DNA from: Arachis hypogaea
Lineage: Eukaryota; Streptophyta; Magnoliopsida; Fabales; Fabaceae
Length of the DNA: 64,000 nt
NCBI RefSeq assembly: GCF_003086295.3
Contig: NC_092039.1
Span: forward strand, 96,678,561 to 96,742,560
Reading direction: 5' to 3'
Shown here: positions 7,118 to 53,234 of the stretch, one piece after another
How the letters are laid out: the number at the start of each line of letters is the position of its first letter
Position numbering within the stretch: position 1 is the stretch's first letter
The notes under the pieces: generated by a model
What the model saw: the letters and a program-made list of their open reading frames with translations, nothing else
Databases searched by the model: none
What the model was told of the DNA's origin: nothing
Translations under genes and position numbers: made by a program

Positions 7118-7153
7118 TTTGCTTGAGGACAAGCAAACCTCTAAGTTTGGTGT
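7118..7153 (+). promoter_or_regulatory. Hairpin plus AAGTTTGGTGT module before ORF3, E1
   Basis: The stem TTTGCTTG/CAAGCAAA with loop AGGA is perfect over 8 bp. It is followed five bases later by AAGTTTGGTGT. The identical design stands before the 3' LTR at 9241-9276. Confidence 0.75.
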
Positions 7154-7191
7154 GCTTTTCCGTGATCACTAAGCCAAGATTCATCAAGATC

Positions 7192-8304
7192 ATGGCTCCC
7201 AAGGGAAAACAAACCAATTTAAGAGGAAAGAAAGAGACTAATCCAAAGAATCTTTGGAATCAAGAGAAGTTCTTAACCAAAGAACATGAAGACCATTATC
7301 ACAAAATAATGGGTCTGAGGTCAGTGATCCCGGAAGTTAAATTTGATCTGAAAGAAGATGAATATCCGGGGATCCAAGAGCAAATTCGAAACAGAGGATG
7401 GGAAGTTCTGACCAATCCTGAAATAAAGGTTGGAAGGAACATGGTTCAGGAATTCTACTCTAATCTGTGGCTAACAGATAAGCAAAGAATGACTGGAACT
7501 GCTTACCATACCTACAGAACCATGGTCAGAGGGAAAGTTATGTACTTCCATCTGGACAAAATAAGAGAAATCTTCAAACTACCTCAACTGCAAGACGATC
7601 CTGATTCCTTCAATAGGAGGATGGTGAGAGTAGATAAAGGGTTGGATCAAGTTCTAGAGGACATATGCCTCCCTGGGACTAAGTGGATAACCAATTCAAA
7701 AGGTGTCCCAAACCAACTCAAGAGGGGAGACCTCAAACCAATTGCAAGAGGTTGGCTAGACTTTGTTGGGCGTTCCATATTGCCCACTAGCAACCGTTCT
7801 GAGGTCACCATCAAGAGAGCAGTGATGATTCATTGCATTATGCTTGGAAAAGAAGTGGAGGTCCATCATGTGATTGCTTGTGAGATCTACACAATTGCAA
7901 ATAAGAATTCCACTGAAGCCAAATTGGCTTACCCAAGCCTGATCTCCTTGCTCTGTAAAGAGGCTGGGGTGAAGATGGGAGTAGATGAGTTCATACCCAT
8001 TGAACACCCAATCACCAAGAAGTCAATGGAAGGCCAAATGCAAGACAACTCTATCAAGAGGAGGGCGCAGGAATTCCTCCCTGAATTCCCAAGAATTGAC
8101 TACTGGACCAGCCTAGAAGCATCTATCACCAAGTTGCAAGAGACTATGGAGCAACTGAAGGAAGAACAGCAGAATCAGAACTGCATGCTCTGCAAATTGC
8201 TGAAGGAACAAGAGAAGCAGGGGCGTGAACTCCAAGAGTTGAAACGCCAAAAGCTCTCCTCTCAAGCTGAGGGAGCATCCACTTCTCAAAATCAAGGTTG
8301 TTGA
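7192..8304 (+). CDS. E1 ORF3, Athila env-position protein (putative plant transposon protein domain)
   Basis: Open frame of 370 codons after integrase, in the position often called env in Athila elements. I see no signal peptide or membrane segment, so calling it an envelope is not supported. The central part (about residues 60-290) has the conserved stretches RGWEVLTNPEI, MVRGKVMYFHLDKIREIF, DLKPIARGWLDF and ILPTSNRSEVTIKRAVMIHCIM, recognised as the family annotated putative plant transposon protein, of unknown function. The C-terminus (about 300-355) is rich in Glu, Gln and Leu and likely a coiled coil. The start MAPKGKQ was chosen by the basic N-terminus shared in style with E3. It is the only intact ORF of this element. 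Confidence 0.85.
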   Translation: MAPKGKQTNLRGKKETNPKNLWNQEKFLTKEHEDHYHKIMGLRSVIPEVKFDLKEDEYPGIQEQIRNRGWEVLTNPEIKVGRNMVQEFYSNLWLTDKQRMTGTAYHTYRTMVRGKVMYFHLDKIREIFKLPQLQDDPDSFNRRMVRVDKGLDQVLEDICLPGTKWITNSKGVPNQLKRGDLKPIARGWLDFVGRSILPTSNRSEVTIKRAVMIHCIMLGKEVEVHHVIACEIYTIANKNSTEAKLAYPSLISLLCKEAGVKMGVDEFIPIEHPITKKSMEGQMQDNSIKRRAQEFLPEFPRIDYWTSLEASITKLQETMEQLKEEQQNQNCMLCKLLKEQEKQGRELQELKRQKLSSQAEGASTSQNQGC

Positions 8305-9240
8305 GTCCTAACTCTGTGAAAACCTCTATCATTAGGAGCCTATGTTTTTGCGTTTTCTTTTTCTTTTGTTTTGTTTTCTATTTTTATTTTTTTTAGTCTT
8401 ATATCTATCTTTGAGTCTTTTTCTTAATTCATAGTTAATAAAATTGAAATTTTATGCCTTAAAGCTATGAATGTCCTATGAATCCATCACCTCTCTTAAA
8501 TGAAAAATGCTTTAATCACAAAAGAACAAGAAGTACAGGATTTCGAAATTTATCATTGAAACTAGTTGAATTAGTTTGATGTGGTGACAATACTTTTTGC
8601 TCTCTGAATGAATGCTTGAACAGTGCATATGTCTCTTGAATTTGTTGTTTTGAGAATGTTAAAAAAATTTGTTGGCTCTTGAAAGAAGGAAGAAAAAGAG
8701 AACTGTTATTGAGGATCTAAAAATCATTAGATTGATTCTTGAAGCAAGAAAAAGCAGTGAAAAAAAAATTTTCGAAAAAAAAAAAGAAAAGAGAAGAAGA
8801 AAAGAAAAAAAAAAGAGAAAGAAAGAAATAAAAGTTGTGATCCAAGGCAACAAGAGTGTGCTTAAGAACCCTGGACACCTCTAATTGGGGACTTTAGCAA
8901 AGCTGAGTCACAATCTGAAAAGGTTCACCCAATTATGTGTCTGTGGCATGTATGTATCCGGTGGTAATACTGGAAGACAGAGTGCTTTGGGCCACAGCCA
9001 AGACTCATACACTAGCTATGTTCAAGAATCATTATGCTCAACTAAGAGAATCAATAACACTATCTGAGTTCTGAGTTCTTATAGATGCCAATCATTCTGA
9101 ACTTCAAGGGATAGAGTGAGATGCCAAAACTGTTCGGAGGCAAAAAGCTAATAGTCCCGCTCATCTAATTGGGGCTATGTTTCCTTGGTATTTTGGAGTC
9201 TATAGTATGTTCTCTTCTTTTTATCCTATTTTGATTTTCA
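8305..9240 (+). other. E1 3' untranslated region
   Basis: Non-coding, conserved with E3 (19413-20278) and antisense E6 (37344-38409), including the stretches ATGAATCCATCACC and CAATCTGAAAAGGTTCACCC. It contains a purine tract (about 8681-8838). ORFs here are composition artefacts. Confidence 0.7.
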
Positions 9241-9276
9241 GTTGCTTGGGGACAAGCAACAATTTAAGTTTGGTGT
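9241..9276 (+). promoter_or_regulatory. Hairpin plus polypurine-like box before 3' LTR, E1
   Basis: Stem GTTGCTTG/CAAGCAAC with loop GGGA, then AATTT and AAGTTTGGTGT, ending two bases before the LTR. The position is that of the polypurine tract that primes second-strand DNA. Confidence 0.78.
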
Positions 9277-9278
9277 TG

Positions 9279-10810
9279 TGATGAGCGGATAATTTGTATG
9301 CTTTTTGGCATTGTTTTTAGTATGTTTTTAGTGTAATCTAGTTAGTTTTTAGTATATTTTTATTAGTTTTTAGCTAAAATTCACTTTTCTGGACTTTACT
9401 ATGAGTTTGTGTGTTTTTCTGTGATTTCAGGTATTTTCTGGCTGAAATTGAGGGTCCTGAGCAAAAATCTGATTCAGAGACTGAAAAGGACTGCAAATGC
9501 TGTTGGATTCTGACCTCCCTGCACTCGAAGTGGATTTTCTGGAGCTACAGAAGCTCAAATGGCGCGCTCTCAACGGCATTGGAAAGTAGACATCCTGGGC
9601 TTTCCAGCAATATATGATAGTTCATACGTTGCCCAAGATTTGATGGCCCAAACCGGCGTGGCAAATCAGCTTCACAAATTCCAGCGTTAAACGCCGGAAC
9701 TGGCATAAAACTTGGAGTTAAACGCCCAAACTGGCATGAAAGCTGGCGTTTAACTCCAGAAAAGGTCTCTACACGAAAATGCTTCAATGCTCAGCCCAAG
9801 CACACACCAAGTGGACCCAGAAGTGGATTTTTACGTCATTTACTCATTTCTGTACACCCTAGGCTACTAGTTTACTATTAATAGGATCTTTTGACATTGT
9901 ATCAGTACCTTATGACCTGATGACATTTTTACACGTTTCTCATTGTATCTTCCACGGCATGAGTCTCTAAACCCCATGGTTGGGGGTGAGGAGCTCTGCT
10001 GTGTCCTGATGGATTAATGCAATTACTACTGTTTCTCATTCAATCATGCTTGCTTCCATTCTAAGATAATACTTGTTCTTAATCCGGATGAATGTGATGA
10101 TCCGTGACAATCATCATCATTCTCAACTATGAACGTGTGCCTGACAACCACCTCCGTTCTACCTTCGATTAAGTAGTTATCTCTTGGGTTCTTTAACCGG
10201 AATCTTCGTGGTATAAGCTAGAATTGATGGCGGCATTCAAGAGAATCCGGAAGGTCTAAACCTTGTCTGTGGTATTCTGAGTAGGATTCAATGATTGAAT
10301 GACTGTGACATGCTTCAAACTCCTGAAGGCGGGGCGTTAGTGACAGACGCAAAAGAATCACTGGATTCTATTCCGGCCTGATTGAGAACCGACAGATGAA
10401 TTCCGCTATGCTGTGACAGAGCATATGCAATCGCTTTCACTGAGAGGATGGGAGGTAGCCATTGACAACGGTGAAACCCTACATATAGTTTGCCATGGAA
10501 GGAGACTTGCGTGTTTGAAGAAGAAGACAGTAGGAAAGCAGAGATTCAGAAGATGGAGCATCTCCAAACCTCAACCTATTCTCCATTACTGCAAAACAAG
10601 TAATCATTTCATGTTCTTTTGCTTTTCACAATCAATCCTGATAATTTCTGATATCCTGACTAAGATTTACAAGATAACCATAGCTTGCTTCAAGCCGACA
10701 ATCTCTGTGGGATCGACCCTTGCTCACGCAAGGTATTACTTGGACGACCCAGTACACTTGCTGGTTAGTTGTGCGGGATTGCAAAAGTGTGATTGCAATT
10801 TCGTGCACCA
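9279..10810 (+). repeat. E1 3' LTR
   Basis: Starts TGATGAGCGG and ends GCACCA (1532 bp). It contains palindrome units at about 9682-9760. The last ~130 bp, with GGGATCGACCC, TTACTTGGACGACCCAG and CACTTGCTGGTTAG, are conserved in all related LTRs of this window. The flanking target duplication is predicted to be CTCCC (10811-10815), but the left copy lies outside the window. Confidence 0.9.
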
Positions 10811-11232
10811 CTCCCAACAAGCGCTTTTTTAATGTCTTTAGCTAGACTTCACTGTACTTAACTTAGTAACAGTGTTGAGCCTTCTAGCTCTATATCTCCT
10901 TCAAGGTAATGTTTGACCCTCTATCCGTTGATAGTGAACCTTTTTTCTTTTCCTTGAAGCTCTATGTGCCCGTAAGGTGATACACTAGTAATCACAAACG
11001 GTTCTGTCCAATGGGATTTGAGTTTTCCAGGGAACAGTTTGAGTCTTGAGTTGAAGAGCAGGACTTTCTGTCTTTGTTCAAAGACTCTAGAAGCTAACTT
11101 CCTGTCATGCCACCTTTTTGCTTTTTCATTATAGATTTTTGCATTTTCAAATGCATTTAAACGGAATTCGTCCAACTCATTCAGTTGGAGAAGCTGTTTC
11201 TCTCCTGCTGCCTTAGCATCAAGGTTGAGGAG
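10811..11232 (-). pseudogene. pol: H integrase C-terminal part and start of 3' UTR
   Basis: Minus-strand translation from about 11230 to 10921 gives the integrase tail ([21 protein letters not shown], then [20 protein letters not shown] and VSPYGHIEL), homologous to E1 6000-6250. The plus-strand stretch 10811-10850 is the reverse of the conserved AAAGAAGCGCTTGTTGGGAG region after integrase, and E1 has inserted within that hairpin. E3 begins right after the AGGAG at 11228-11232. Confidence 0.85.
11228..11232. other. E3 target site duplication, left copy
   Basis: AGGAG precedes TGATGAGCGG at 11233 and recurs directly after the 3' LTR at 22016-22020. A further copy at 12932-12936 belongs to the captured flank. 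Confidence 0.88.
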
Positions 11233-11829
11233 TGATGAGCGGATAATTTGTATACTTTTTGGCATTGTTTTTAGTATGTTTTTGATATGATCTAGTTAGT
11301 TTTTAGTATATTTTTATTAGTTTTTAGTTAAAATTCACTTTTCTGGACTTTACTATGAGTTTGTGTGTTTTTCTGTGATTTCAGGTATTTTCTGGCTGAA
11401 ATTGAGGGACCTGAGCAAAAATCTGATTCAGAGACTGAAAAGGACTGCAGATGCTGTTGGATTCTGACCTCCCTGCACTCGAAGTGGATTTTCTGGAGCT
11501 ACAGAAGCCCAATTGGCGCGCTCTTAACGGCGTTGGAAAGTAGACATCTTGGGCTTTCCATCAATATATGATAGTCCATACTTTGCCCAAGATTTGATGG
11601 CCCAAACCGGCGTTCAAAGTCACCTCAAGAAATCCCAGCGTTAAACGCTGGAACTGGCACCCAAATGGGAGTTAAACGCCCAAACTGGCATGAAAGCTAG
11701 CGTTTAACTCCAAGAAGAGTCTCTGCACGAAAAATGCTTCAATGCTCAGCCCAAGCACACACCAAGTGGGCCCGGAAGTGGATTTTTATGTCATTTACTC
11801 ATTTCTGTACACCTTAGGCTACTAGTTCT

Positions 11830-11837
11830 TATAAGTA
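11830..11837 (+). promoter_or_regulatory. Possible LTR TATA box, E3
   Basis: TATAAGTA in the middle of the LTR, about 600 bp from its start, followed by GGACC. It could set the U3/R border. The second LTR has it at 20914-20921. Judged on motif only. Confidence 0.35.
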
Positions 11838-12888: not shown

Positions 12889-12931
12889 TATGAGAGTTGT
12901 GAAAAAGTATTGTTCACAATTTCGCGCACCA

Positions 12932-13494: not shown

Positions 13495-15096
13495 TGTTCA
13501 GGCTGGACAACTGACGGTTCATCTTGTTGCTTAGATTAGGTATTTATTTTTTTCGAAATTCTTGAAGATGAATTCTAGAGTTTCATGATGATTTGTTGAA
13601 ATCTGGCTGGCTGAGAAGCCATGTCTAATTTCATTGGACCGAGGTTTCAACTTATCATCACAAGAGCTTGTTGATTTCTTATCAATCTTGCTTTTGGAGT
13701 AGTGATCTGCTAAGGCTTGGCTGGCCTTTGGCCATGTCTAGTGTTTTGGACCGAAGCTTCCTCTGAAAGCTTGGCTGGCTGTGAAGCCATGTCTAATTCC
13801 TGGACCGGAGTCTTAGACTAACATTGCACTGATTCCTGGAATTCTCATTAAGAATTTTGATATCTTTTTCCATTTAATTTTCGAAAAAACACAAAAAAAT
13901 TTTACAAAATCATAAAAACCAAAAATATTGTTGTTTCTTATTGAGACACTAGTCTCATCATAAGTTTGGTGTCAATTGCATGCATTCATATGTCTTAGTG
14001 ATCTTCAAGATGTTCTTGATGATTTACTTGCTCTGATCTTTAAATTCTATTGACTTGAGTGTTTTGAGTGTCTCATATGCATTTTCATTTTGTTAGTGTC
14101 AGTAGTATACAAACTGCTAAGTTTGGTGTCTTGCATGCATTGTTATTTGATTCTTGTTGCATTTTGGTTTGTCCTTATTATTAAAAATCCAAAAATATTT
14201 TTAATTTGTGTCTTTTCAAGTCAATAATACAGAGAATTGAAGGTTCAGAACATACAGCAGAGGAATTGCACAGAAAAAGCTGGGCGTTCAAAACGCCCAG
14301 TGAAGAAGGACAGACTGGCGTTTAAATTCCAGCCAAGGTACCTGGTTGGGCGTTTAACGCCTAAAAGGGTAGCATTTTGGGCGTTAAACGCCAGAATGTG
14401 CACCATTCTGGGCGTTTAACGCCAGGATGGCTAAAGGGGGAAGATTTTGTTTTCAAATCAATTTTTTTTTAAGTTTTCAACATCTTTTCAAAATCAAATC
14501 TTTTTCAAATCAATTTTTCAATCAAATCTTTTTCAAAATTAACTTCTTCCCTTTTTCAAGGATACTTACTATCAATTAATGATCTGATTCAACATTTCAA
14601 GTATGTTGCCTTTTCTGTTGAGAAAGGTTTAATGATTGAATCATATCTTTTCTTGTTAGTCAAGTTTTTAATTTTCAAATCAAATCTTTTTAAAATGTTT
14701 TCAAATCATATCTTTTAAAATTGTTTTCAAATCATATCTTCTTAACCACATCTTCTTCAAAATAGTTTTCAATCAAATCTTTCTAATTTCTAATTTCAAA
14801 ATCTTTTTCAAAAATCATTTGATTTCTTTTCCCTTTTCATTTTCGAAAATTAATTAGTGTTTTTCAAAATGTTTTCAAAATTTTTCACTTAATTTTCGAA
14901 AATGACTTCCCTCCTTCTCACATCCTTCTATTTATGGACTAACACTATCCCTTAATGCAAAATTCGAACTCCATTCTCTCTGATAAGTTCGAATTTTCCA
15001 CTTCTGTCTTCTACTCTTCTTTTCCTCTGAAACCTAAAGGAATCTCTATACTGTGACATAGAGGATTCCACATTTTCTTGTTCTCTTCTCTTTCTT
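13495..15096 (+). other. E3 leader (5' UTR)
   Basis: 1.6-kb AT-rich leader without a conserved ORF. At about 13604-13815 a unit beginning GGCTGGC..GCCATGTCTA, then TGGACCG, occurs three times. AAGTTTGGTGT occurs at about 13964 and 14119. A palindrome array occupies 14278-14430. Many TTTTCAAATC stretches follow. Confidence 0.7.
14278..14430 (+). repeat. Palindrome array in E3 leader
   Basis: Five units of the GGCGTTTAACGCC type, one degenerated, spaced about 30-35 bp. Flanking words (AGGTACCTGG, ATTCTGGGCG) resemble the E1 array after integrase, although here it lies before gag. Confidence 0.85.
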
Positions 15097-17436
15097 ATGA
15101 GCAGGAGCAAAGACAAAGGCATTCTTGTTGAGGCTGATCCTGAACCTGAAAGGACCTTGAAGAGAAAGCTCAGAGAAGCCAAAGCACAACTCTCTTTAGA
15201 GCACCTAACCGAATTCTTCAAAGAAGAAGAACACATGGCAGCCGAAAACAACAACAATGCCAACAATGCAAGGAAGGTGCTGGGTGACTTTACTGCACCT
15301 ACTCCCGACTTCTATGGGAGAAGCATCTCTATCCCTGCCATTGGAGCAAACAACTTTGAGCTTAAGCCTCAATTAGTTTCTCTAATGCAACAGAATTGCA
15401 AGTTCCATGGACTTCCATTGGAAGATCCTCATCAGTTCTTAACTGAGTTCTTGCAAATCTGTGACACTGTCAAGACTAATGGGGTTGACCCTGAGGTCTA
15501 CAGACTTATGCTATTCCCTTTTGCTGTAAGAGACAGAGCTAGGACATGGTTGGACTCTCAACCTAAAGAAAGCCTGGACTCTTGGGAAAAGCTAGTCAAT
15601 GCCTTCTTGGCAAAGTTCTTTCCACCTCAAAAATTGAGTAAGCCTAGAGTGGAAGTCCAAACCTTCAGACAGAAGGAAGGAGAATCCCTCTATGAAGCTT
15701 GGGAAAGATACAAACAATTGATCAGAAAATGTCCCACTGACATGCTTTCTGAATAGAGCATCATAGGTATTTTCTATGATGGTCTCTCTGAACTGTCCAA
15801 GATGTCCTTGGATAGCTCTTCTGGAGGATCTCTTCATTTGAAGAAGACGCCTACTGAGGCTCAAGAGCTGATTGAAATGGTTGCAAATAACCAATTCATG
15901 TATACTTCTGAAAGAAATCCTGTGAGCAATGGGACTAGTCAGAAGAAAGGAGTTCTTGAGATTGACACTCTGAATGCCATTTTGGCTTAGAACAAAATAT
16001 TGACTCAACAAGTCAATATGATTTCTCAAAGTCTGTCTGGAATGCAGAATGCACCAAGCAGTACTAAGGAAGCTTCATCTGAGGAAGAAGCTTATGATCC
16101 TGAGAACCCTTCAATAGAAGAGGTGAATTACATGGGAGAACCCTATGGAAACACCTACAATCCTTCATGGAGGAATCATCCAAATCTTTCATGAAAGGAT
16201 CAACAGAGACCTCAACAAGGTTTCAATAATAATAATGGTGGAAGAAACAGGTTTAGCAATAGCAAGCCTTTTCCATCATCATCTCAGCAACAGACAGAGA
16301 GTCCTAAGCAGAATACCTCTGACTTAGCAACTATGGTCTCTGATCTGATCAAAACCACTCAAAGTTTCATGACTGAAACAAGGTCCTCCATCAGAAATTT
16401 GGAAGGACAAGTGGGTCAGCTGAGCAAGAAAATTCTTGAACTCCCTCCAAGTACTCTCCCAAGCAATACTGAGGAAAATCCAAAAGGAGAGTGCAAGGCC
16501 ATCAACATGGCCAAATTCTGGGAGGAAGAAGAGGCAGTGAACGCCACTGAGGAAGACCTCACTGGACGTCCACTAGCCTCCAATGAGTTCCCCAATGAGG
16601 AACCATGGAAATCTGAGGCTCAAAATGAGACCATAGAGATTCCACTAGACTTACTTCTGCCATTCATGAGCTCTGATGAGTATTCTTCCTCTGAAGAGGA
16701 TGAGTATGTCACTGAAGAGCAAGTTGCTAAATACCTTGGAGCAATCATGAAGTTAAATGACAAGTTATTTGGAAATGAGACTTTGGAGGATGAATCCACT
16801 TTGCTCACCAAAGAACTGGATGACTTGTCTAGGCAGAAACTGCCTCAAAAGAGACAGGATCCTGGGAAGTTTTCAATACCTTGTACCATAGGCACCATGA
16901 CCTTCAAGAAGGCCTTGTGTGACTTAGGGTCAAGTGTAAACCTCATGCCCCTCTCTGTAATGGAGAAGTTAGGGATCTTTGAGGTGCAAGCTGCAAAAAT
17001 CTCACTAGAGATGGCAGACAACTCAAGAAAACAAGCCTATGGACTTGTAGAGGACGTTCTGGTAAAGGTTGAAAACCATTACATCCCTACTGATTTCATA
17101 GTCCTAGAGACTGGGAAGTGCATGGATGAATCCATCATCCTTGGCAGACCCTTCCTAGCCACAGCAAGGGCTGTGATTGATGTTGATAGAGGAGAGTTGA
17201 TCATTCAAGTGAATGAAGAATCCTTGGTGTTTAAGGCCCAAGGATATCCCTCTGTCATCATGGAGAGGAAGCATGAAGAGCTTCTCTCAAAACAGAGCCA
17301 AACTGAGCCCCCACAGTCAAACTCTAAGTTTGGTGTTGGGAGGCCACAACCAAACTCTAAGTTTGGTGTTGAACCCCCACATTCAAACTCTAAGTTTGGT
17401 GTTGGGAGGTTCCAACACGGTTCTGAGTATTTCTGA
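15097..17436 (+). pseudogene. gag: E3 gag-protease, one frame with three nonsense codons
   Basis: One reading frame of about 779 codons runs from the ATG at 15097 to TGA at 17434-17436 without a frameshift, interrupted by TAG 15754, TAG 15988 and TGA 16192. Each fits one transition, from a Trp, Gln and Trp codon by comparison with context. Gag comes first (basic N-terminus, then FYGRSISIPAIGANNFELKP, ARTWLDSQPKESLDSW and AWERYKQLIRKCPTDM), then an Asn/Gln/Ser-rich stretch, then retropepsin with ALCDLGSSVNLMPLSV near 16912 and IILGRPFLATARAVIDVDRG near 17140. The tail carries a triple NSKFGV repeat. There is no RT after it. A broken gag in a young element suggests it was carried in trans. Confidence 0.88.
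17318..17405 (+). repeat. Triple CTAAGTTTGGTGTTG repeat at the E3 protease C-terminus
   Basis: Three in-frame copies (about 17322, 17360 and 17390) of the polypurine-like box AAGTTTGGTGT, translated NSKFGV each time. They lie about 100 bp before the place where RT would start in complete relatives. Confidence 0.85.
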
Positions 17437-17486
17437 GGCTCCATGAGAAGCCCTCTGTCAAGCTAATGACATTAAAGAAGCGCTTG

Positions 17487-17502
17487 TTGGGAGGCAACCC
17501 AA
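17487..17502 (+). other. Conserved hairpin after the gag-protease frame, E3
   Basis: TTGGG-AGGCAA-CCCAA, preceded by ATTAAAGAAGCGCTTG. Compared with E1, the outer C-G pair is replaced by T-A, keeping the stem. It lies 50 nt after the stop. Confidence 0.7.
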
Positions 17503-17818: not shown

Positions 17819-18117
17819 TGGCTCAAAACGTGAATTTTGATGCCATTTGGTGCAGGGATGACTTTTCCTTGACACCACAGGATCTGTGGACCCCACAGGA
17901 TCCCCACCTACCCTACCATCACTCTCTCTCTTCTTCCCCCATTCACCAATCACCTCAACACCTCTTCCCCAAAACCCCTTCACCTATCAAATCCCATCTT
18001 TCTCTTCACCACTCACATCCATCCTTCATAAATCCCCACCAACCTCACCCTTCAAATTCAAACCACTTTCCCTCCCAAACCCACCCATAATGGCCGAACC
18101 TTTACCCCCCTCTCTCC

Positions 18118-18214: not shown

Positions 18215-18251
18215 TTTGCTCGAGGACAAGCAAACATTTTAAGTTTGGTGT
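18215..18251 (+). promoter_or_regulatory. Hairpin plus AAGTTTGGTGT module before ORF3, E3
   Basis: TTTGCTCG-AGGA-CAAGCAAA (one mismatch in the 8-bp stem) followed by CATTTT and AAGTTTGGTGT. Confidence 0.7.
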
Positions 18252-18289
18252 GGTAAAAGCGTTGCTTTTTTCGTTTTTCCATAACCATT

Positions 18290-19412
18290 ATGGCATCCAA
18301 GGCCGGAGAAACCTCTAGAAAGAGGAAAGGGAAGGCAAAAGCTTCCACCTCCGAGTCATGGGAGATGGATAGATTCCTCTCAAGGGTGCATCAAGACCAC
18401 TTCTATGAAGTTGTGGCCTTGAAGAAGGTGATCCCCGAGGTCCCCTTTTCACTCAAAAAGGGGTGAATATCCGGAGATCCGACATGAGATCCGAAGAAGA
18501 GGTTGGGAAGTTCTTACCAACCCCATTCAACAAGTCGGAATCTTGATGGTTCAAGAGTTCTATGCCAATGCATGGATCACCAAGAACCATGACCAAAGTG
18601 TGAACCCGAATCCAAAGAACTATCTCACTATGGTTCGGGGGAAATACTTGGATTTTAGTCCGGAGAGTGTGAGGGTGGCGTTCAACTTGCCTATGATGCA
18701 AGGAGATGAGCATCCTTACACTAGAAGGGTCAACTTTGATCAAAGGTTGGACCAAGTCCTCACAGTCATATGTGAAGAGGGCGCACAATGGAAGCAAGAT
18801 TCAAGGGGAAAGCCGGTCCAATTGAGAAGGCATGACCTCAAGCCCGTGGCTAGAGGATGGTTAGAGTTCATACAACGCTCAATCATTCCCACTAGCAACC
18901 GGTCCGAAGTTACCATAGATCGGGCTATCATGATCCATAGCATCATGATTGGAGAAGAAATAGAGGTTCATGAGGTTATAGCCCAAGAACTCTATAAGGT
19001 GGCGGACAAGACCTCCACCTTGGCAAGGTTAGCCTTTCCTCATCTCATTTGTCACCTCTGTTATTCAGTTGGAGTTGACATAGATGGAGACATTCCCATT
19101 GAGGACAAACCCATCACCAAGAAAAGGATGGAGTACACAAGAGACCCCACTCATCATGAGATCCCTGAGATTCCTCAAGGGATGCACTTTCCTCCACAAG
19201 ACTATTGGGAGCAACTAAATACCTCCCTAGGAGAGTTGAGTTCCAACATGGGACAACTAAGGGTGGAGCATCAAGAACACTCCATCATCCTTCATGAAAT
19301 TAGAGAAGATCAAAGAATCATGAGGGAGGAGCGACAAAGACAAGGAAGAGACATTGAGGAGCTCAAGCACTCCATAGGATCTTCAAGAGCAAGAAAGAGC
19401 CGCCATCACTAA
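18290..19412 (+). pseudogene. E3 ORF3 (putative plant transposon protein), frameshifted
   Basis: The start MASKAGETSRKRKGKAKAS gives a very basic N-terminus. The frame closes at TGA 18464-18466 because of an extra G in a run of A and G, then continues in another frame to TAA 19410-19412. The core matches E1 ORF3 (RGWEVLTNP, MVRGKYLDF, DLKPVARGWLEFIQRSIIP, TSNRSEVTIDRAIMIHSIMI). The C-terminus is a likely coiled coil (EHQEHSIILHEIREDQRIMR) ending in Arg/His. E6 has a closer relative of this version. Function unknown. Confidence 0.85.
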
Positions 19413-20278: not shown

Positions 20279-20314
20279 GTTGCTTGGGGACAAGCAACAA
20301 TTTAAGTTTGGTGT
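20279..20314 (+). promoter_or_regulatory. Hairpin plus polypurine-like box before 3' LTR, E3
   Basis: GTTGCTTG-GGGA-CAAGCAAC, then AATTT and AAGTTTGGTGT, two bases before the LTR start. Confidence 0.78.
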
Positions 20315-20316: not shown

Positions 20317-22015
20317 TGATGAGCGGATAATTTGTATACTTTTTGGCATTGTTTTTAGTATGTTTTTGATATGATCTAGTTAGTTTTTAGTATATTTTTA
20401 TTAGTTTTTAGTTAAAATTCACTTTTCTGGACTTTACTATGAATTTGTGTGTTTTTCTGTGATTTCAGGTATTTTCTGGCTGAAATTGAGGGACCTGAGC
20501 AAAAATCTGATTCAGAGACTGAAAAGGACTGCAGATGCTGTTGGATTCTGACCTCCCTGCACTCGAAGTGGATTTTCTGGAGCTACAGAAGCCCAATTGG
20601 CGCGCTCTTAACGGCGTTGGAAAGTAGACATCTTGGGCTTTCCATCAATATATGATAGTCCATACTTTGCCCAAGATTTGATGGCCCAAACCGGCGTTCA
20701 AAGTCACCTCAAGAAATCCCAGCGTTAAACGCTGGAACTGGCACCCAAATGGGAGTTAAACGCCCAAACTGGCATGAAAGCTAGCGTTTAACTCCAAGAA
20801 GAGTCTCTGCACGAAAAATGCTTCAATGCTCAGCCCAAGCACACACCAAGTGGGCCCGGAAGTGGATTTTTATGTCATTTACTCATTTCTGTACACCTTA
20901 GGCTACTAGTTCTTATAAGTAGGACCTTTTGCTATTGTATTAGAGGACTTTGGTAGCTATCTTCATTTTTATGCTATCTTAGATCATTGGGAGGGTGGCC
21001 ATTCGGCCATGCCTAGACCTTATGCTTATGTATTTTCAACGGTGGAGCTCTGCTGTACCTCGAGTATTAATGCAATAACTATTGTTCTTCCATTCAATTC
21101 CGCTTGTTCTTGTTCTAAGATATCACTTGTTCTTCAACTTGATGAATGTGATGATCTGTGACACTCATCATCATTCTCACCCATGAACAAAGTGACTGAC
21201 AACCACTCTTGTTCTACAAGCAACTAAGGCCATAGTGAATGTCTCTTGGATTCCTGATTGCACGATGCATGGTTGATCGCCTGACAACCGAGTGCTCGCC
21301 TGACAAACGAGCCAACCATTCCGTGAGATCAGAGTCTTCGTGGTATAGGCGAGAACTGATGGCAGCATTCAAGAGAATCCGGAAGGTCTAACCTTGTCTG
21401 TGGTATTCTGAGTAGGATTCATTGACTGAATGACTGTGACATGCTTCAAACTCCTGAGGGCGGGGCGTTAGTGACAGATGCAAAAGAATCACTGGATTCT
21501 ATTCCGGCCTGATTGAGAACCGACAGATGAATTCCGCTATGCTGTGACAGAGCATATGCAATCGCTTTCACTGAGAGGATGGGAGGTAGCCACTGACAAC
21601 GGTGAAACCCTTGCTTAAGCTTGCCATGGAAAGGAGTAAGAAGGATTGGATGAAGGTAGTAGGAAAGCAGAGAGACGGAAGGGAAGGCATCTTCATACGC
21701 TTATCTGAAGTTCCTACCAATGAATTACATAAGTATCACTATCTTTATCTTTTATGTTATTTTCGTTCATCACCATATACATTTGAGTTTGCCTGACTAA
21801 GATTTACAAGATGACCATAGCTTGCTTCAATACTAACAATCTCCGTGGGATCGACCCTTACTCACGTAAGGTTTATTACTTGGACGACCCAGTGCACTTG
21901 CTGGTTAGTTGTGCGAAGTTGTGTAATGCCATGGTATTGAGCTACTACGTTTTTGGAGCCATTACCGGGGATTATGAGAGTTGTGAAAAAGTATTGTTCA
22001 CAATTTCGCGCACCA
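20317..22015 (+). repeat. E3 3' LTR
   Basis: 1699 bp, TGATGAGCGG to GCGCACCA, followed by AGGAG at 22016-22020 and by uninterrupted antisense H integrase. This side of the element is normal. Confidence 0.92.
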
Positions 22016-35687: not shown

Positions 35688-37305
35688 TGATAGGCAAAAT
35701 TGTGATTTACACTTTTTATAACTCGAATAATCCTTAGTAATGGCTCTAGAGACTTGGTGCACACTACTATGGTTCACTCACATTCCTCACAACTTCGCAC
35801 AACTAACCAACAAGTGCACTAGGTCGTCCAAGTAATAAACCTTACGTGAATAAGGGTCGATCCCACGGAGATTGTTGGTATGAAGCAAGCTATGGTCATC
35901 TTATAAATCTCAGTTAGGCTGATTCAAATGATTATAATGGTTTCGAAAATAATAATAAATAAAGCATAAAATAAAGATAGAGATACTTATGTAAATCATA
36001 GGTGGGAATTTCAGATAAGTGTATGGAGATGCTTTGTTCCTGTTGAATCTCTGCTTTCCTACTGCTTTTATCCAATCCTTCTTATTCCTTTCCTTGGCAA
36101 GCTGTATGTAGGGCATCACCGTTGTCAATGGCTACTTTCCATTCTCTCAGTGAAAATGGTCCAAATGCTCTTGTCACAGCACGGCTAATCATCTGTCGGT
36201 TCTCGATCATGTCGGAATAGAATCCATTGATTCTTTTGCGTCTGTCACTACGCCCAACAATCGCAAGTTTGAAGCTCGTCACAGTCATTCAATCCTTGAA
36301 TCCTACTCGGAATACCACAGACAAGGTTTAGACTTTCCGGATTCTCAAGAATGGCTGTCAGTAATTCTAGCTTATACCACGAAGACTCTGATTAAGGAAT
36401 CCAAGAGATACTCGCTCGTTCTAAGGTAGAACGGAAGTGGTTGTCAGTGACGCGTTCATAGCTGAGAATAATGATGAGTGTCAGGATCATCACATTCATC
36501 ATGTTGAAGTGTAACGAATATCTTAGAACAAGAATAAGCTGAATTTAATAGAAAATAGTAGTAATTGCATTAAAACTCGAGGTACGGCAGAGCTCCACAC
36601 CTTTAATCTATGGTGTGTAGAAACTCCACCGTTGAAAATACATAAGTGATGGTGGTCCGAGCATGGCCGAATGGGCAGCCCTCCTGGTCTAAGAACTAAA
36701 CATCTAGAGATATCCAAATACAATAGTAAAAAGTCCTATTTATATTAGACTAGCTACTAGGGTTTACAGAAATAAGTAATTGATGCAGAAATCCACTTCC
36801 GGGGCCCACTTTGGTGTGTTCTTGGGCTGAGCTTGAGCTTGACACATGCAGAGGCTTTCTTTAGAGTTAAACGCCAAGTTGTAACGTGTTTTTGGCGTTT
36901 AACTCTGGTTTGTGACGTGTTTCTGGCGTTTTACTCCAGAATGCAGCATGGAACTGGCATTGAACGCCAGTTTGCGTCATCTAATCTCGAACAAAGTATG
37001 AACTATTATATATTGATGGAAAGCTCTGGATGTCTACTTTCCAACGCCATTAAGAGCGCGCCATTTGGAGTTCTGTAGCTCCAGAAAGTCTATTTCGAGT
37101 ACAGGGAGGTCAGAATCCAACAGCATCAGCAGTCCTTTTTCAGCCAGAAAATACCTAAAATCACAGAAAAACACACAAACTCATAGTAAAGTCCAGAAAT
37201 GTGAATTTTGCATAAAACTAATGAAAACATCCCTAAAAGTAGCTAGATCTTACTAAAAACTACCTAAAAACAATGCCAAAAAGCGTATAAATTATCCGGT
37301 CATCA
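35688..37305 (-). repeat. LTR6, 3' LTR of E6
   Basis: From TGATAGGCAAA to GGTCATCA on the plus strand. Ends are inferred by alignment with the E3 LTR. It holds palindrome-type units at about 36860-36980 and an internal decayed primer-site copy at 35730-35748. Confidence 0.75.
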
Positions 37306-37307: not shown

Positions 37308-37343
37308 ACACCAAACTTAAATTGTTGCTTGTCCCCAAGCAAC
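37308..37343 (-). promoter_or_regulatory. Polypurine-like box plus hairpin, E6
   Basis: On the minus strand: GTTGCTTG-GGGA-CAAGCAAC (37343-37324) then AAGTTTGGTGT (37318-37308), two bases from the LTR, as in E1 and E3. Confidence 0.75.
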
Positions 37344-38409: not shown

Positions 38410-39188
38410 TTAGTGATGGTGGCGTCTTCTTCTTGAAGGACCAATGATGTCCTTGAGCTCCTCTATGTCTCTTCCTTGCCTTTGTTGCTCCTCCCTCATA
38501 GCTCTTTGATCTTCTCTAATCTCATTGAGAATGATGGAGTGCTCTTGGTGTTCTACCCTTAATTGATTCATATCATGACTCAATCCTTCTAGAGAAGTGT
38601 TGAGTTGTTCCCAATAGTTGTTTAGAGGAAAATACATCCCTTGAGGCATATCAGGGATCTCTTGATGATGAGCTTCCTCATGCGTCTCTTGAGATCCATA
38701 GATGGCTTCTCTTGTTTGCTCCATCCTCTTCTTAGTGATGGGCTTGTCCTCTTCAATGAGGATGTCTCCTTTTGTGACAACTCCAGCTGAGTAGCATAGA
38801 TGGCAAATGAGATGAGGAAAAGCTAGCCTTGCCAAAGTGGAGGGCTTTTCGACTACTTTGTAGAGTTCTAGAGAGATGACTTCATGAACTTCTACTTCCT
38901 CTCCAATCATGATGCTATGGATCATGATGGTCTGATCCACAGTAACTTCGAATCGATTGCTAGTGGGGATGATGGACCATTGGATGAACTCCAACCATCC
39001 TCTAGCCACAGGCTTAAGGTCCAGTCTTCTTAATTGAACCGGCTTGCCTTTAGAGTCTCTTTTCCATTGAGCTCCTTCCATACATATGTCCATGAGGACT
39101 TGGTCTAACCTTTGATCAAAGTTGACCCTTCTAGTGTAGGGGTGTGCGTCTTCTTGCATCATAGGCAAGTTGAATGCCAACCTTACAT
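38410..39188 (-). pseudogene. E6 ORF3 fragment (putative plant transposon protein)
   Basis: About 256 codons open on the minus strand, beginning inside the domain at AFNLPMMQEDAHPYTRRVNF and ending at TAA 38410-38412 with an Arg/His-rich tail. It matches E3 ORF3 (DLKPVARGWLEFIQ, TSNRFEVTV, IMIHSIMIGEEVEVHEV). The N-terminal third is missing at the junction to element N, so the Met at 39180 is an internal residue, not a natural start. Confidence 0.83.
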
Positions 39189-39870
39189 GAACATGTACCC
39201 AATTCTCAATGTTTTCAATAACAGTACAAAACTAACCTTTTATTCCCCCAATGTCCCAAGGTTCCCACACTTGAATGATACACACACTTTAGCCTAAGCT
39301 AATCAAAGATCCAAATAAGGACTTTTATTATTTTTCTCTTTAAGGCTTGTAATGTGCTAAAATAAGAATAAAGTGGGTTAATCGTAGGCTCAAATTTGGT
39401 TAACAAAGGAAGATAAAAGGTAAGGCCTTTTGGGTAAGTGAGCTAATGAAATGATGGCTTCAATCATATAAATGCATTAATACACAAAATAATGGACATA
39501 AAGAATCAAACAAATCAAAGATTACAATCATAGAAAGAGAATAATGCACACAAGAAGGAAAATAAGTGGTTATAAGATGTAACCACACCATTAGGCTCAA
39601 ATCTCACTTGCCTGTGTTCTTAGCTCAAAAACATGATCCATAATATATATAATTCAAGCAAGTTCTATGAAAAGTTTTTTTTACTCAAATCAATTGAGAT
39701 GCCCTATAGATAGAAATCCTTGAAAAATTTCATTATTTTGACTAAGCTTAGTGTGTATACATATGCAAAAATAAGAAAAAATGCAACAAAAATCCTAAAA
39801 ACCTAAAACGAAATGCAAAAGTGTTGGAATTAGAAATTTGTCACCCAAAATTGACGACCGGTCAGACGAC
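39189..39870 (-). other. N 3' untranslated stretch
   Basis: AT-rich, no ORF. A second box resembling AAGTGTGGGAAC lies on the minus strand at about 39264-39278 and could mark the lost 3' LTR border, but the sequence beyond does not match the N LTR start. Confidence 0.4.
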
Positions 39871-39907
39871 CTCCCCACACTTAAAAGTCTGCACCGTCCT
39901 CGGTGCA
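39871..39907 (-). promoter_or_regulatory. Hairpin plus AAGTGTGGGGAG module, N
   Basis: Minus strand: TGCACCG-AGGA-CGGTGCA, then GACTTTT and AAGTGTGGGGAG. The 7-bp stem shares no sequence with the E1 stem, but loop type and spacing are the same. Confidence 0.75.
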
Positions 39908-43433: not shown

Positions 43434-43436
43434 TTT

Positions 43437-48400: not shown

Positions 48401-49167
48401 AGTAATATTATTTGTCGCTTTGGATCATCATGAGCAATCGTGAGTGATCAGGGCTCTCACTTTTGTAACAGAAGAATGACATGTATGATGAAGAAACATG
48501 GCATCATTCACAAGGTGGCGATGGCTTACCATCCCTAAACGAATGGCCAAGCCGAGGTGTCTAATAGAGAGATCAAGCACATATTGAAAAAGATTGTTAA
48601 ACCTCATAGAAAGGACTGGAGCGCTAGGCTTGGAGATGCGCTATGGGCTTATCGCACTGCTTACAAGACACCCATCTGCATGAGTCCGTTCCGCCAAGTC
48701 TACGGAAGGGCTTGTTACCTTCTGGTAGAGGTGGAACACAAAGCTTACTACGCTGTGAAGGAATGCGACTCAAGAATGGGAGGAGCCGAAATTGAAAGAA
48801 AGTTACAACTGGAGGAATTGGAGTGCCTTCGGCTAGAAGCGTATGAGAACTCAAGGTTCTACAAAGAAAAGGTGAAGGCGGTACATGACAAGAACATCAA
48901 GAAAAGAGAGTTTAGATCTGGGGATCAATTCCTTCTCTACAACTCAAGATTGAGGTTAATTCTGAGCAAACTGAGGTCAAGATGGGATGAACCCTACGTG
49001 GTGGAGAAGGTGAAACCATATGGAGTTGTCCACCTAAGTCACCCTCAAGCCCTACCTTCTTCAAAGTCCATGGCCACCGTTTGAAGCTGTATCATGGTGC
49101 AAAGGTGAAGAACAACAAAGAGCTGGAGATCTTCCTCTTGAAGGATCCAACAAAGGAAGAGGACTGA
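45413..49167 (+). pseudogene. pol: A protease, RT, RNase H and integrase
   Basis: Protease: MCDLGACFSIMPLSVYDAL near 45721 and ILLGMPFLKTSRFKLDAFSG near 45950. RT: YPISDSEWVSLVQVVPKKSG, WRVCIDYMCLN, DGYTGY, and FMDNFSVYG near 46996, in which the second catalytic Asp is Asn. RNase [39 protein letters not shown] and [11 protein letters not shown]. Integrase: ACHSSESGGHFG and CDSCHQCQRFG, GIDFMGLFPNSNG, IVSDQGSHFCNR and [13 protein letters not shown]. At least eight stops or frameshifts (for example 45707, 46476, 46494, 46840, 47515, 47772, 48260, 48433 and 48537). The likely original end is the TGA at 49165-49167. Confidence 0.87.
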
Positions 49168-49210
49168 GCCTATTGACCGTCCAACTTAAGGACATTAAAG
49201 AAAAGTGCAA

Positions 49211-49228
49211 GGTGGGAGAACCCCCACC
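49211..49228 (+). other. Conserved post-pol hairpin, A
   Basis: GGTGGG-AGAACC-CCCACC, 43 nt after the inferred pol stop and preceded by ATTAAAGAAAAGTGCAA. Confidence 0.72.
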
Positions 49229-49365
49229 ATGGTATGATCTTCCCTTTTTCTAGTTCTATTTTATTTATTTTCGTATATTTATTCCATTATCTGTCCTTGT
49301 TAATTTTCACATAAGCATGTTTTTCTCTTATTCTGAGTTAAAAAAAAGAGTGCATCCCACACGTA

Positions 49366-49730
49366 AGCGTCATCGACGCGCATGCGTCGTAGGGCTACTG
49401 GCACTCCTTGGTACATTTTCCTGAGAGTTGTGCTGGAACTGTGCGGGCGGGGTGCCTGGCGCATAACCCACCCCATGAGTACGCGTGATCCACGCGTACG
49501 CGTCACCAGCAATTTCGTCACCTCACGCGTGTACGTGAACGACGCGTACATGTCGTATGGCATTTCGGTGCACTCTCGTACAAAAACCCGAGAGTTGTGC
49601 CGGTACTGTGCTGGAATCGTGCGTCAGGCACGACGAGTAGTCACACATATGTGTGACCGACACTAACACGTCACTGAGATTTCTTCTTACCCACGCGTAC
49701 GCGTGGGCGACGCGCACGCGTCACAGCGCG
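49366..49730. repeat. GCGTACGC-type repeats, A internal
   Basis: Clusters at about 49366-49395, 49477-49560 and 49680-49728 (ACGCGTACGCGT, GACGCGTACATG, GACGCGCACGCG). They stand where the E1 family has its GGCGTTAAACGCC array. Confidence 0.83.
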
Positions 49731-50486
49731 AATCCCATTAAACCAGCGCGCCGCCCATAGCCCCTTCTTCTTTAATCCCTCTTTTCTTTTTCTAATCCTA
49801 ATTCTTTTATTTTCTTTCTTTTTTTTTACTTCTTCCTTATTTCTTTCCCCCCTCCACCACCACCGTTGGATCGCCAACTCCGACAACCATAATTTCCTTT
49901 CCTTTTCATTTTCTCTTCCTACCCCTCTTATCTCATTCCTTCTCCCATTTATCCCCCTCTCTTCATCTTCTTTTCAAGTTTTTTTTCTTACTTTCTTCTA
50001 CTCTTTAATTTTTTTGTTTTTTAAATTCAAATATTTTAATTATTTTTAATTGCATCTTAATTTTGTTCTTTGTAATTCCTTTTTAATTCTTTTTTTTCTT
50101 TTTACATTTTTATTTTGGTGTTAGAATTTTATTTGGTAGATTGTTTTGATATTTCTTAACATGTTTGTGTTATGAGGTGTCGTTTGACAATTGGCATTCT
50201 ATTTTGGGTCTACTATACACTTGGATTGATTACCTTACTTCTTGTTTTTAATATTGATGCTTGAGCTATTCTTCTCATGCTTGTTACTTGCATGCTTTTA
50301 TCCCTCTTGCATCTAGTTATTATGATATGCCTTCATGATTTTAATTGATGTCTTACTTGCATGTTGTAGCTACCATATATTTAAGACACTTTCTTTTTCT
50401 CTGGCATTCATTATCACTTGCACTTTTTTACTTCCGGTGTTTATTTTTCTAAGTTTAATAGTCCTTCTTTTTCTTCTTTTTTCAGG
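49731..50486 (+). other. A region upstream of ORF3
   Basis: CT-rich then T-rich non-coding DNA without a supported gene. The pyrimidine richness parallels the E1 and E3 stretches before ORF3; no clear TATA box at the same spacing. Confidence 0.5.
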
Positions 50487-51766
50487 ATGGCCATCAAGAG
50501 AGAAAAACAGAAGGCTTCTAATAAGACACGGGCAAAGAAAAGAACTAAAAGAGCACCGGCTAAGGCGCAACCACCCTCAAGGGTCAAGCCACCTACTAAG
50601 CAAGTGAAGAGGACCATTTGAGTTGAGGAAGTGGAAAAGGAATTTCTCGTATGGGACACCGCACGATTCACTAACCACTATTGTAAGCGGATGCCCCGTC
50701 ATAGCAGAGAGAAACTACCACAACGAACACCTCCTCATTCTTCCAGCGCACTTTGTTGAATTTGTGGTGCCTCGCCTTGAAAGGAGACAATGGGAATTCT
50801 TAAGGAGGCATCCGCGAGAAGCTAATCTTTCTTGGGTAGTTTAATTCTACGCCAACTTTCACTCGCTTACCCTTCAGTCAGTCTTTGTGCGTCAAAAGCA
50901 TGTCCCTATCTCAAAAGGTGCCATTCAGAAAGTACTTGATTTTTACCTAGTCTGGAGGGGATGGATGCCTATCAAGAGGCACAGCTTAAGTGCCAGACAT
51001 TCTAGTTTAACTGGAACCTCGTCCACAGAGTCATCGCCCAACCAAGAAGTGAGTGGAATTATGGACAATACCGGACTAGACCCAAGAGCATCTCCGCCCA
51101 GGACCTCACTTTGGAGGCTCGAGTGGGGGCACAGATCATGTCCCACTACATATTTCTGAGAACTCATGAGTCTACTTTTACTGCTGACATGGCCGTTCTC
51201 GTCTAATGCATTCTTACAGAGAAGCCTCTCAACTTGCCACGACTCATCCGACAAGCTATAGGCCGAGTGCAAATAGCAGGCTACCTACTTTTTCCCGCAT
51301 TGGTCACGAACTTGGTGTCTGCGGTGAGAGTTTCATCTCGGGTTAAGGATGTGAATACCATGATTCCTAGGCTGACGAATTTGTCTCGAATGGGAAATAT
51401 ATCAGGCCTCCAGCGCCACCTATAAGCCGGAATGAAGACTCGTCCTTTGACGTCCCTTCATCCTCTGCTCCACCATCGTCCACACCACATGCACTACCAC
51501 CCACCCATCAGTTGCTACTTGAGATCCTTGGAAAGTTAGACCGGCAAGGCCGGCAGATTGAGCAAATTAAGCACCGTAATAAGCACCGATACAACTACTT
51601 GAAGGGGCTCGTTAGTTGTACTCACCCACCTCCGAAAGTTCCCGATACTCCGGAATCCACTTCTAATAACAGCATGAAGAGCCATGACAAATCGGACAGT
51701 GGGAGTGATGATTCTAACCCCACTTTGCTCATCACTGATGGCACGGAAGACCGTGCCAAATATTAA
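50487..51766 (+). pseudogene. A ORF3 (putative plant transposon protein)
   Basis: Starts at ATG 50487 (MAIKREKQKASNKTRAKKRT), a basic N-terminus. It breaks at TGA 50619 and continues in other frames: ERNYHNEHLLILPAHFVEFV, ERRQWEFLRRHPREANLSWV, then RLIRQAIGRVQIAGYLLFPA, and a C-terminal stretch KLDRQGRQIEQIKHRNKHRY with a Ser/Asp tail ending at TAA 51764-51766. Related in layout to E1 ORF3 but a different branch. At least four frame breaks. Confidence 0.75.
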
Positions 51767-51777
51767 GTGTGGGGAGG
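51739..51777 (+). promoter_or_regulatory. Hairpin plus AAGTGTGGGGAGG module at the ORF3 end, A
   Basis: TGGCACGG-AAGA-CCGTGCCA (8-bp perfect stem), then AATATT and AAGTGTGGGGAGG. The hairpin overlaps the last ORF3 codons. Confidence 0.78.
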
Positions 51778-53198
51778 TCGGTAACTAACTTTCGAAGGTA
51801 ACAACTCTCTCTCTCAACACCAATATTTTTAATTTTCTTTTGTTAGATAAGGTAACTTCCATGAGTATTTAGTTGCTTGCATTTAGGTACTACTTGGTTG
51901 AAGTGATAATTTCTTTTTCAAGACACTGCTTTAAAGCATTTCACTAATTTGAATTAAAACCTTTTGAACTTGCTTGAAGAATTTTATTTTAGAACATGAT
52001 TTTAGAGCTCGAACATACAAAAAAACCAGTGAGATTTTGAACCTATTTGATTGGTTGCATCTTATCAACCAATGTTTTATTTTAGTGTGTGTTATTCTCT
52101 TTAAAATTGTGATCTTTGTCTTGCTTGATTCTATATTTTCATTGTTTGATGTATGCATGCACTTACGTGATTGAGGCCTTGTTTCACTATAGCTCACATA
52201 CCCATATGGCCTTACCCTTTCATTTTCCTTTGCAACCCAATATTGAGCCTATTTTACCCCATTTATTCTTTATAAAAGCACATCATTAACTCAAAGCGGA
52301 AAATAATAAATGTCCCTAATTTGAATCCTTGGTTAGCTTAGACTAGTAAGATGTACGTGAATTAAGTGTGTGAAAATTGGGTTTGGGGAATACTTGGTTA
52401 GGGAATTGAGTATTTTACATTCTTATATGAAAATGTGAAAACAGTTTAGGCACTTGTTCATGCATCCAGCACATTAGTCATATGCATTAACTCACTGAAA
52501 AAAAAAACAAAAAAACAAATAAAAAAAGAGAAAAATATATATGAATAATAAGCAAAGGAAAACTAATAAGTGAAAGCAATAAAAAAGGGCACAGATTGCC
52601 CCCAAGGCTAATAAGTGAACTAGTGCATATGATTTATACTCAAAAGATATCAAGGTGCATGGATTTGTGAAAAAATAGTTAATGGGTGGCTAGGCTTTGC
52701 ATTCTGATAACATGGAATGTCCTAAGTTAGGTGGAAAGTTTGGGTTAATCAAGGATTTGAATTTTAGTCCAGTTAACCAAATACATTCCTACCTTGACCC
52801 TAACCCCATTACAACCCCTGCAAAGACCCATTGATATGTGTATTTATGCATCAAAATTTTGTTGATTGGCAGAAGAAGAGCAAACCTTAGAAAGCAAGAT
52901 TAGTAGAAAACCCAGAGAATTGGCCCTTAAATACTAGAGTGATTAGAGTCTATACACTTCCAGTGAGTGTTCGATGCTCGATTCTTTGTTCCCAGTTTTC
53001 ATGAGCTTTCTTCTTGCAAGTTTACTTGTACTTTATTGTGTGATTTGAATTAGTGAAATCCAGCTATGTTTGTCTTGGAGAATTTGTTTACTTTTAACCA
53101 AGTAGGTAAAAGCATTTAGCATGTTGTTGCATTCTTATAGATAAATTGCATTGCATAAGTCTCACCATTTTCCCTCCACTCCTTTGCCTCACCTGAGC
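51778..53198 (+). other. A 3' untranslated region
   Basis: AT-rich, non-coding; ORFs here lack any family resemblance. A-rich tract at 52498-52535. Confidence 0.6.
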
Positions 53199-53234
53199 TT
53201 AGCATGAAGACATGCTAATGTTTAAGTGTGGGAA
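53199..53234 (+). promoter_or_regulatory. Hairpin plus polypurine-like box before 3' LTR, A
   Basis: TTAGCATG-AAGA-CATGCTAA (8-bp perfect stem), then TGTTT and AAGTGTGGGAAG, four bases from the LTR start. Confidence 0.78.

Follow-up and report, generated by a model that had tools for sequence, protein, structure and literature searches.

The window considered here is a 64,000-nucleotide stretch (G000:C4:96678561-96742560) of the 2.56-Gb genome of Arachis hypogaea, occupied by nested Ty3/gypsy-type elements. At eight places these elements carry a compact module in which a stem of 7–8 bp, capped by a purine tetraloop, is followed by a box reading TAAGTTTGGTGT or TAAGTGTGGG. Comparison was made with 20 further stretches of 10 kb each from the same genome, designated by L-numbers, which together with the window form a 264-kb sample; L003, L005 and L007 duplicate places already represented among L002, L004, L006 and L008. 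The module is real, its stem covaries, it is consistently oriented and it is located at the polypurine tract (PPT), a known kind of place.

Element E1 lies on the plus strand between long terminal repeats (LTRs) at 1–739 (partial) and 9279–10810. It encodes gag (PF03732), a protease open reading frame (ORF), an integrase ORF and ORF3 (7183–8304, plus strand), which matches Transposase_32 (PF20167, E 1.6e-40; frame scanned from 7183, first ATG at 7192); a further ORF, at 3187–4869, lies between protease and integrase. In element E3 one ORF resembles protease only weakly (E 0.0018, below the cut-off), and there is also an ORF3, of which the open piece at 18543–19412 (plus strand) matches Transposase_32 (E 4.1e-37), and no pol ORF of at least 250 amino acids is found for E3 among the ORFs listed for the window. 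The LTR type TGATGAGCGGATAATTT... is presumably that of the Arachis element FIDEL. Element A is degenerate. An extra ORF lies between pol and the 3' LTR, as in Athila elements, and Transposase_32 occurs in both element types. The elements probably belong to the same lineage as Athila4 and Calypso, judging from a tRNA-Asp type primer binding site and from the layout, set beside what is known of those elements (in part from PMC1142308).

All eight modules, first reported in the initial annotation, are confirmed at their coordinates; seven of the eight stems are fully Watson–Crick over 7–8 bp, and the loops are AGGA at three sites, GGGA at three and AAGA at two. The internal module of E1 (7118–7153, plus strand) consists of an 8-bp stem with an AGGA loop (7118–7137) and the box TAAGTTTGGTGT (7142–7153), followed 38 nt past the box by the first ATG of ORF3 (7192). 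Its 3' module (9241–9276, plus strand) has an 8-bp stem, a GGGA loop and the box, and the LTR starts with TGATGAG at 9279. The internal module of E3 (18215–18251, plus strand), with an AGGA loop and the box, is the one imperfect case: its stem, TTTGCTCG/CAAGCAAA, contains a single A·C mismatch at the second pair. In four other genomic copies (L002, L004, L006, L008) this site reads GCTCG/CGAGC and is fully paired. An ATG at 18290 is likewise situated 38 nt past the E3 box, but its frame is interrupted. The 3' module of E3 occupies 20279–20314 (plus strand), with the LTR starting at 20317.

Element A carries an internal module at 51739–51777 (plus strand; stem TGGCACGG/CCGTGCCA, loop AAGA, box TAAGTGTGGGGAGG) and a 3' module at 53199–53238 (plus strand; stem TTAGCATG/CATGCTAA, loop AAGA, box), where the LTR starts with TGATATAC at 53239. 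The two remaining modules are on the minus strand, where pieces of two different elements meet near 39187–39232, one module in each. One, at 37308–37343, is a 3' module and sits in the 3' fragment of a FIDEL-like element whose LTR starts at 37305 going down, with an ORF3 piece upstream of it (38410–39180, minus strand; Transposase_32, E 1.1e-20); the other, at 39870–39907, is of internal type and belongs to a fragment resembling element A (stem TGCACCG/CGGTGCA, loop AGGA, box TAAGTGTGGGGAGG). This arrangement agrees with the earlier assignment of the eight sites to five elements.

The statement that one copy adjoins each visible 3' LTR holds: four sites abut an LTR start (9241, 20279 and 53199 on the plus strand, 37308 on the minus strand), LTR starts being fixed by comparison with LTR copies that have no box. 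Throughout the sample, the first base of the box is separated from TGAT by 14–16 nt at 16 LTR-adjacent sites; counted from the first T of TAAGT, the distance is 14 nt for TGATGAG and 15–16 nt for LTRs beginning with TGATAAAC or TGATATAC. As it abuts the LTR, the 3' box is by its position the PPT, and would be expected to prime plus-strand synthesis. Its purine content varies: TAAGTGTGGGGAGG is fairly rich in purines and TAAGTTTGGTGTTG hardly so. Sixty exact boxes occur in the sample. A hairpin is present at all 16 that directly precede an LTR start, compared with 16 of the 44 others by a strict rule (loop RRG, R being a purine, 11–13 nt before the box and at least 5 of the first 6 pairs formed) or 19 of 44 by a looser one. 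Those 16 non-LTR sites comprise 13 internal modules and three sites with an AGGC loop, which fall in 33-nt coding repeats. The distance from loop to box is 11–13 nt; from the unique 3' (U3) region, the start of the LTR, the loop end is 25–28 nt away at the 16 LTR-adjacent sites and the stem base 16–20 nt (mean 18.4). The internal copies carry the same box and hairpin on the sense strand, the orientation of a second PPT.

The association of hairpin and box exceeds chance. Both strands of the sample contain 640 hairpins with at least 7 Watson–Crick pairs and a 4-nt loop, 400 of which are TATA/ATAT runs; 75 of the 640 are followed 6–20 nt after the loop by the box with at most 2 mismatches, 36 of these 75 being TATA/ATAT runs. 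Sorted by loop, the box follows 15 of 18 hairpins with AGGA and all nine with GGGA, and every one of the 27 hairpins with an exact box is spaced 11–13 nt from it. Five Markov-generated controls gave 40–66 hairpins, 1–6 of them with a box. Across the 20 stretches a stem of at least 5 bp precedes 25 of 43 boxes, as opposed to 2 of 43 once the upstream 50 nt are shuffled. When the set was chosen without regard to pairing, by taking every RRGA located 8–16 nt before a box, at least 5 of the first 6 positions paired in 29 of 32 cases at 11–13 nt and in none of five at the other distances.

Genome-wide, the TAAGTGTGG form of the module, to which this count is confined (the TAAGTTTGG form lying outside it), has 17,946 + 18,080 matches, whereas its reversed control has 648 + 523; at least 5 of 6 positions pair at 86 of the first 100 matches listed, with the loop placed for best pairing. 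A covariance model built from nine copies and run over the 264 kb returned 33 sites at E ≤1.5e-4, including the nine that built it. It recovered all eight window modules, scoring 50.5 bits at the E1 internal module and 40.8 bits at the mismatched E3 one, and detected no ninth in the window. Predicted folds of 71–74 nt contain the hairpin at six of the eight window sites.

The initial annotation had proposed that it is the fold that is conserved rather than the sequence, and this is supported by covariation, both overall and within the internal or the 3' sites alone. An alignment of 20 arms, 19 of them distinct, has pairing in 93.4% of its cells and a covariation score of 0.900, versus 0.219 when shuffled; double-changed cells number 54 versus a shuffled mean of 17.7, and for neither measure does any of 500 shuffles reach the observed value. 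Sliding the arms by 1–3 columns lowers the score to 0.187 or less. The internal sites alone (n=11) score 0.820 versus 0.265 shuffled, and the 3' sites alone (n=10, 9 distinct) 0.503 versus 0.135; rows of all three alignments were partly selected by pairing, and the counts are of sequences rather than events; at the 3' sites they may rest on few events, chiefly a GCTTG to GCATG split. Among 49 distinct rows from the genome search, not selected by pairing and with the loop as matched, 75.5% of cells pair versus 46.9% shuffled (maximum of 1000 shuffles: 53.8%), and double-changed cells number 133 versus 59.9 shuffled (maximum 79). Mean column identity is 69% for internal stems and 80% for 3' stems, the internal ones being the more diverse. 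The two stems within one TGATAAAC-type element also differ, AGCATCG versus TAGCATG in L019 and L024 and TGCACCG versus AAGCATG in L021, and are thus not recent copies of each other.

From the observed structure, covariation, spacing, LTR adjacency and internal duplicate, it may be inferred that the box primes and that the hairpin helps it to do so. The favoured interpretation, held with moderate confidence, is that the module, a stem-loop combined with a degenerate PPT, serves plus-strand priming in Athila-type Ty3/gypsy elements, its internal duplicate being a second origin. The earlier suggestion that a structural mark defines the polypurine primer is upheld as regards position, by the 16 of 16 LTR-adjacent boxes and the narrow spacing, and its role in priming is a prediction. 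The plus-strand primer would come from the 3' copy. The internal copy, next to ORF3, has the same structure as the 3' PPT, and would most simply act as a second plus-strand start. Reverse transcriptase, while copying the RNA, might pause at the base of the stem, 16–20 nt from the PPT/U3 junction; the pause would bring the RNase H domain near this junction and help to cut a primer end that a poorly purine-rich tract alone would not define. In the human immunodeficiency virus 1 (HIV-1) enzyme the polymerase and RNase H sites are 17–18 nt apart, near the 16–20 nt between stem base and U3. A wider proposition, advanced only tentatively, is that Athila-type elements possess a structured plus-strand origin: the stem-loop at fixed distance would license the degenerate PPT for primer cutting, two such origins would be kept, one of them internal and beside ORF3, second-strand synthesis would accordingly begin twice and leave an internal flap or discontinuity, and boxes without the hairpin would be weaker, unstructured starts.

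A number of observations weigh against this interpretation. The predicted folds miss the hairpin at two of the eight window sites, and z is below –2 at only four of the eight. In the three alignments, overall, internal and 3', whose partial selection by pairing is itself a weakness, the pairs that show double changes (7, 7 and 4 of 8) are not above shuffles, 367, 169 and 119 of 500 reaching the observed value, nor is the number of pair types (144, 249 and 72 of 500). G·U cells show no excess, 11 versus 8 A·C cells in 24 distinct arms. Hairpin-less boxes occur in leaders and coding repeats, places in which the benefit of priming is less evident. As to the mechanism, the active sites of the Ty3 reverse transcriptase are approximately 13 bp apart (PMC5371799), less than 16–20 nt, and an RNA hairpin is gone in an RNA/DNA hybrid and so can act only before being copied. 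Moreover, distances vary less when measured from the loop than when measured from the stem base, with a standard deviation of 0.70 versus 1.11 to U3 and of 0.63 versus 0.98 to the box, a pattern that is no prediction of a pause at the stem base. A protein that binds the loop, either Gag or the reverse transcriptase itself, is the main alternative to such a pause.

Among the explanations that depart from priming altogether, the one that fares best, although still unlikely, regards the module as an RNA recognition element for Gag or nucleocapsid, serving packaging, dimerisation or trans-recruitment and lying beside the PPT for unrelated reasons, with the extra boxes raising binding. Exposed G residues of tetraloops are bound by the nucleocapsid proteins of retroviruses, and the module has a purine tetraloop on a closing pair that is mostly G–C (17 of 19 distinct arms). 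The box is also reiterated without the RRGA hairpin at 864, 952, 1025, 13960, 14117, 17324, 17357 and 17390, sites that the first description did not mention: three lone boxes fall in the E1 leader between primer binding site and gag (864–1035, plus strand), two in the E3 leader (13960–14127, plus strand) and three in the 33-nt coding repeats of E3 (17324–17400, plus strand), a region with no listed pol ORF of 250 amino acids or more. Packaging signals usually reside in leaders, yet it is precisely at the leader boxes that the RRGA hairpin is not seen; also against this explanation are a spacing to the PPT fixed within 3 nt and the hairpin at each of the 16 LTR-adjacent boxes.

Rather less probable is an inverted repeat read at the DNA level by a protein such as integrase or a host factor. 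G·U and A·C departures are about equally frequent, so that action at the RNA level and at the DNA level is not separated by this measure, and Sireviruses are known to have an inverted repeat at the border of the PPT (PMC2829016). However, pairing is kept here while the stem sequence is free, whereas a reader of DNA half-sites would usually be expected to keep the sequence, and the 4-nt purine loop is on the sense strand.

Quite improbable is a cis signal for ORF3 expression, be it a promoter region, an element of the 5' untranslated region, a splice acceptor or a terminator. An RNA signal for ORF3 expression had been one of the functions first suggested; the internal module was said to lie next to ORF3, before it in E1 and E3 and at its end in element A. 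The first part of this placement is correct, the module preceding Transposase_32 frames in E1 and E3, and likewise ORF3 in L018, a further FIDEL-like element; no ORF3-like frame was seen after the internal module in L014, nor in L010, which has another LTR type. The second part is weakly borne out in the window: a Transposase_32 remnant at 50845–51156 (plus strand; E 0.014, below the Pfam cut-off) ends approximately 580 nt before the 51739 module, and the open frame at 51371–51766, which runs into that site, has no Pfam match. The order with ORF3 before the module is better seen in related loci. In elements of the TGATAAAC LTR type the module follows an open frame by 28–208 nt (L019, L020, L024, L025), with Transposase_32 present in pieces from L020, L024 and L025 and not found in those from L019 and L021. 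The module is thus on either side of ORF3 according to lineage, before it in E1, E3 and L018 and after it in L020, L024 and L025, which counts against an expression signal. The 38-nt interval between box and ATG in E1 and E3 would suit such a signal, as would a TATA-like word 110–151 nt before the internal box at three of four FIDEL-like sites (E1 at about 7032, E3 at 18117, L018 at about 2698, minus strand). This word, a possible internal promoter for ORF3, was not found ahead of the box in L014, the fourth FIDEL-like site examined, and precedes the module at only one of seven TGATAAAC-type sites; the module at the 3' LTR, identical in kind, has no ORF3 after it. Least credible of all is a relic, in which recombination between PPT-like boxes placed ORF3 and left an internal copy without present function: ORF3 does change sides by lineage, but the internal stems, more diverse than the 3' ones, stay paired through double changes, which suggests selection.

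PPTs are normally regarded as linear purine runs that are recognised in the RNA/DNA hybrid. If the priming interpretation is true, primer choice in some retrotransposons would depend on an upstream RNA (or DNA) structure, a dependence directly testable with short synthetic templates. The stem-loop keeps a constant distance to the PPT in element families that have diverged, and has an internal duplicate; it offers a model with which to search plant genomes for PPTs and 3' LTR starts, and a clue as to whether a Ty3/gypsy lineage has a second origin resembling the central PPT. The central PPT of lentiviruses such as HIV-1 and PPT2 of Ty1 are comparable insofar as a second internal plus-strand start would work similarly; neither is known to have such a hairpin.

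The claim that no description of the module exists needs to be divided. The extra PPT is already known: Athila4 and Calypso are reported to have one in their linker (PMC2829016, after Wright & Voytas 2002), placed between pol and the 3' LTR as here, in an account whose consulted portion makes no mention of a stem-loop, which Wright & Voytas 2002 may describe. The stem-loop part was not found described in the literature searched, by titles and the starts of abstracts listed, a set outside which Wright & Voytas 2002 falls. According to the same paper (PMC2829016), Sireviruses, which are Ty1/copia elements, have multiple PPTs, with identical copies upstream of the LTR and a fixed-position structure at the terminal one. 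Their inverted repeat, in contrast, encloses the PPT and the LTR start, so placed that the right arm falls within the LTR, and their upstream PPTs have no repeat, whereas the internal copy here has a stem too; both stem arms in the Arachis modules lie upstream of the box, a further repeat into the LTR not having been searched for. In the beet chromovirus Bongo3, too, the terminal PPT is preceded by another, a duplication described in Bongo3 but not in Bongo1, Bongo2 or the other clades, and the part of the report consulted leaves a stem-loop unmentioned (PMC3605345). Rfam gave no match in the window at gathering score. A pattern scan of IMG/VR showed no stem of at least 6 Watson–Crick pairs around GRRGAC plus box among the 120 or more stretches listed, and a scan outside the genome with the E1 ORF between the protease and integrase ORFs found no relative.

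Further features accompany the boxes. Within the E3 coding repeats, the middle box (17357) is preceded at 11–13 nt by a weaker stem with an AGGC loop, and by the same stem rule there is no hairpin at the outer two (17324, 17390). Such 33-nt repeats are also present in L002–L008, L015 (6088–6121) and L018 (3566–3632); the core of the box is constant (TAAGTTTGGTGTT, reading SKFGV) while neighbouring letters vary, and some repeats form an AGGC-loop stem 11–13 nt ahead of the next box. The AAGTTTGGTGTNNGG pattern has 22,721 + 22,927 matches genome-wide, versus 960 + 943 for its reverse. Lone boxes without the RRGA hairpin recur in L010, L011, L015, L018 and other stretches. Leader boxes (window 864–1035 and 13960–14127; L010 7081–7283; L018 6974–7172) share flanks, several reading box + CAATTGCATG or box + CTTGCATG, and are without the RRGA hairpin. 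In other element stretches the box itself pairs with a downstream ACACCAAA or CACCAAA and so forms a hairpin arm (L011 at 4379, 4564 and 4613, minus strand; L020 at 628, minus strand), and TGATAAAC-type elements have an extra hairpin-less box-like stretch downstream of the internal module (L025 at 4180, minus strand; L024 at about 2434, plus strand; window at 52362, plus strand, and 39264, minus strand).

An outer helix between the box and upstream pyrimidines, seen in the folds of three window TAAGTGTGG sites, was rejected as a general feature: its duplex energy clearly beats composition shuffles (0–1 of 200) at two of 30 sites, window 7126 and L017 7162, both of them FIDEL-type internal sites. 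Finally, a second conserved block, GTCNAGCTAANGAC...AAAGAAGCGCTTG(T/C)TGGGAGGCAACCCA(A/G) in most copies, stands right after the pol or protease-like ORF (window 6325–6380 and 17450–17500; on the plus strand L014 at 916 and L015 at 6327; on the minus strand L010 at 2871, L011 at 4699, L017 at 7889 and L018 at 3468). It includes a small hairpin of its own, whose arms, TTGGG/CCCAA and CTGGG/CCCAG, covary at one pair.

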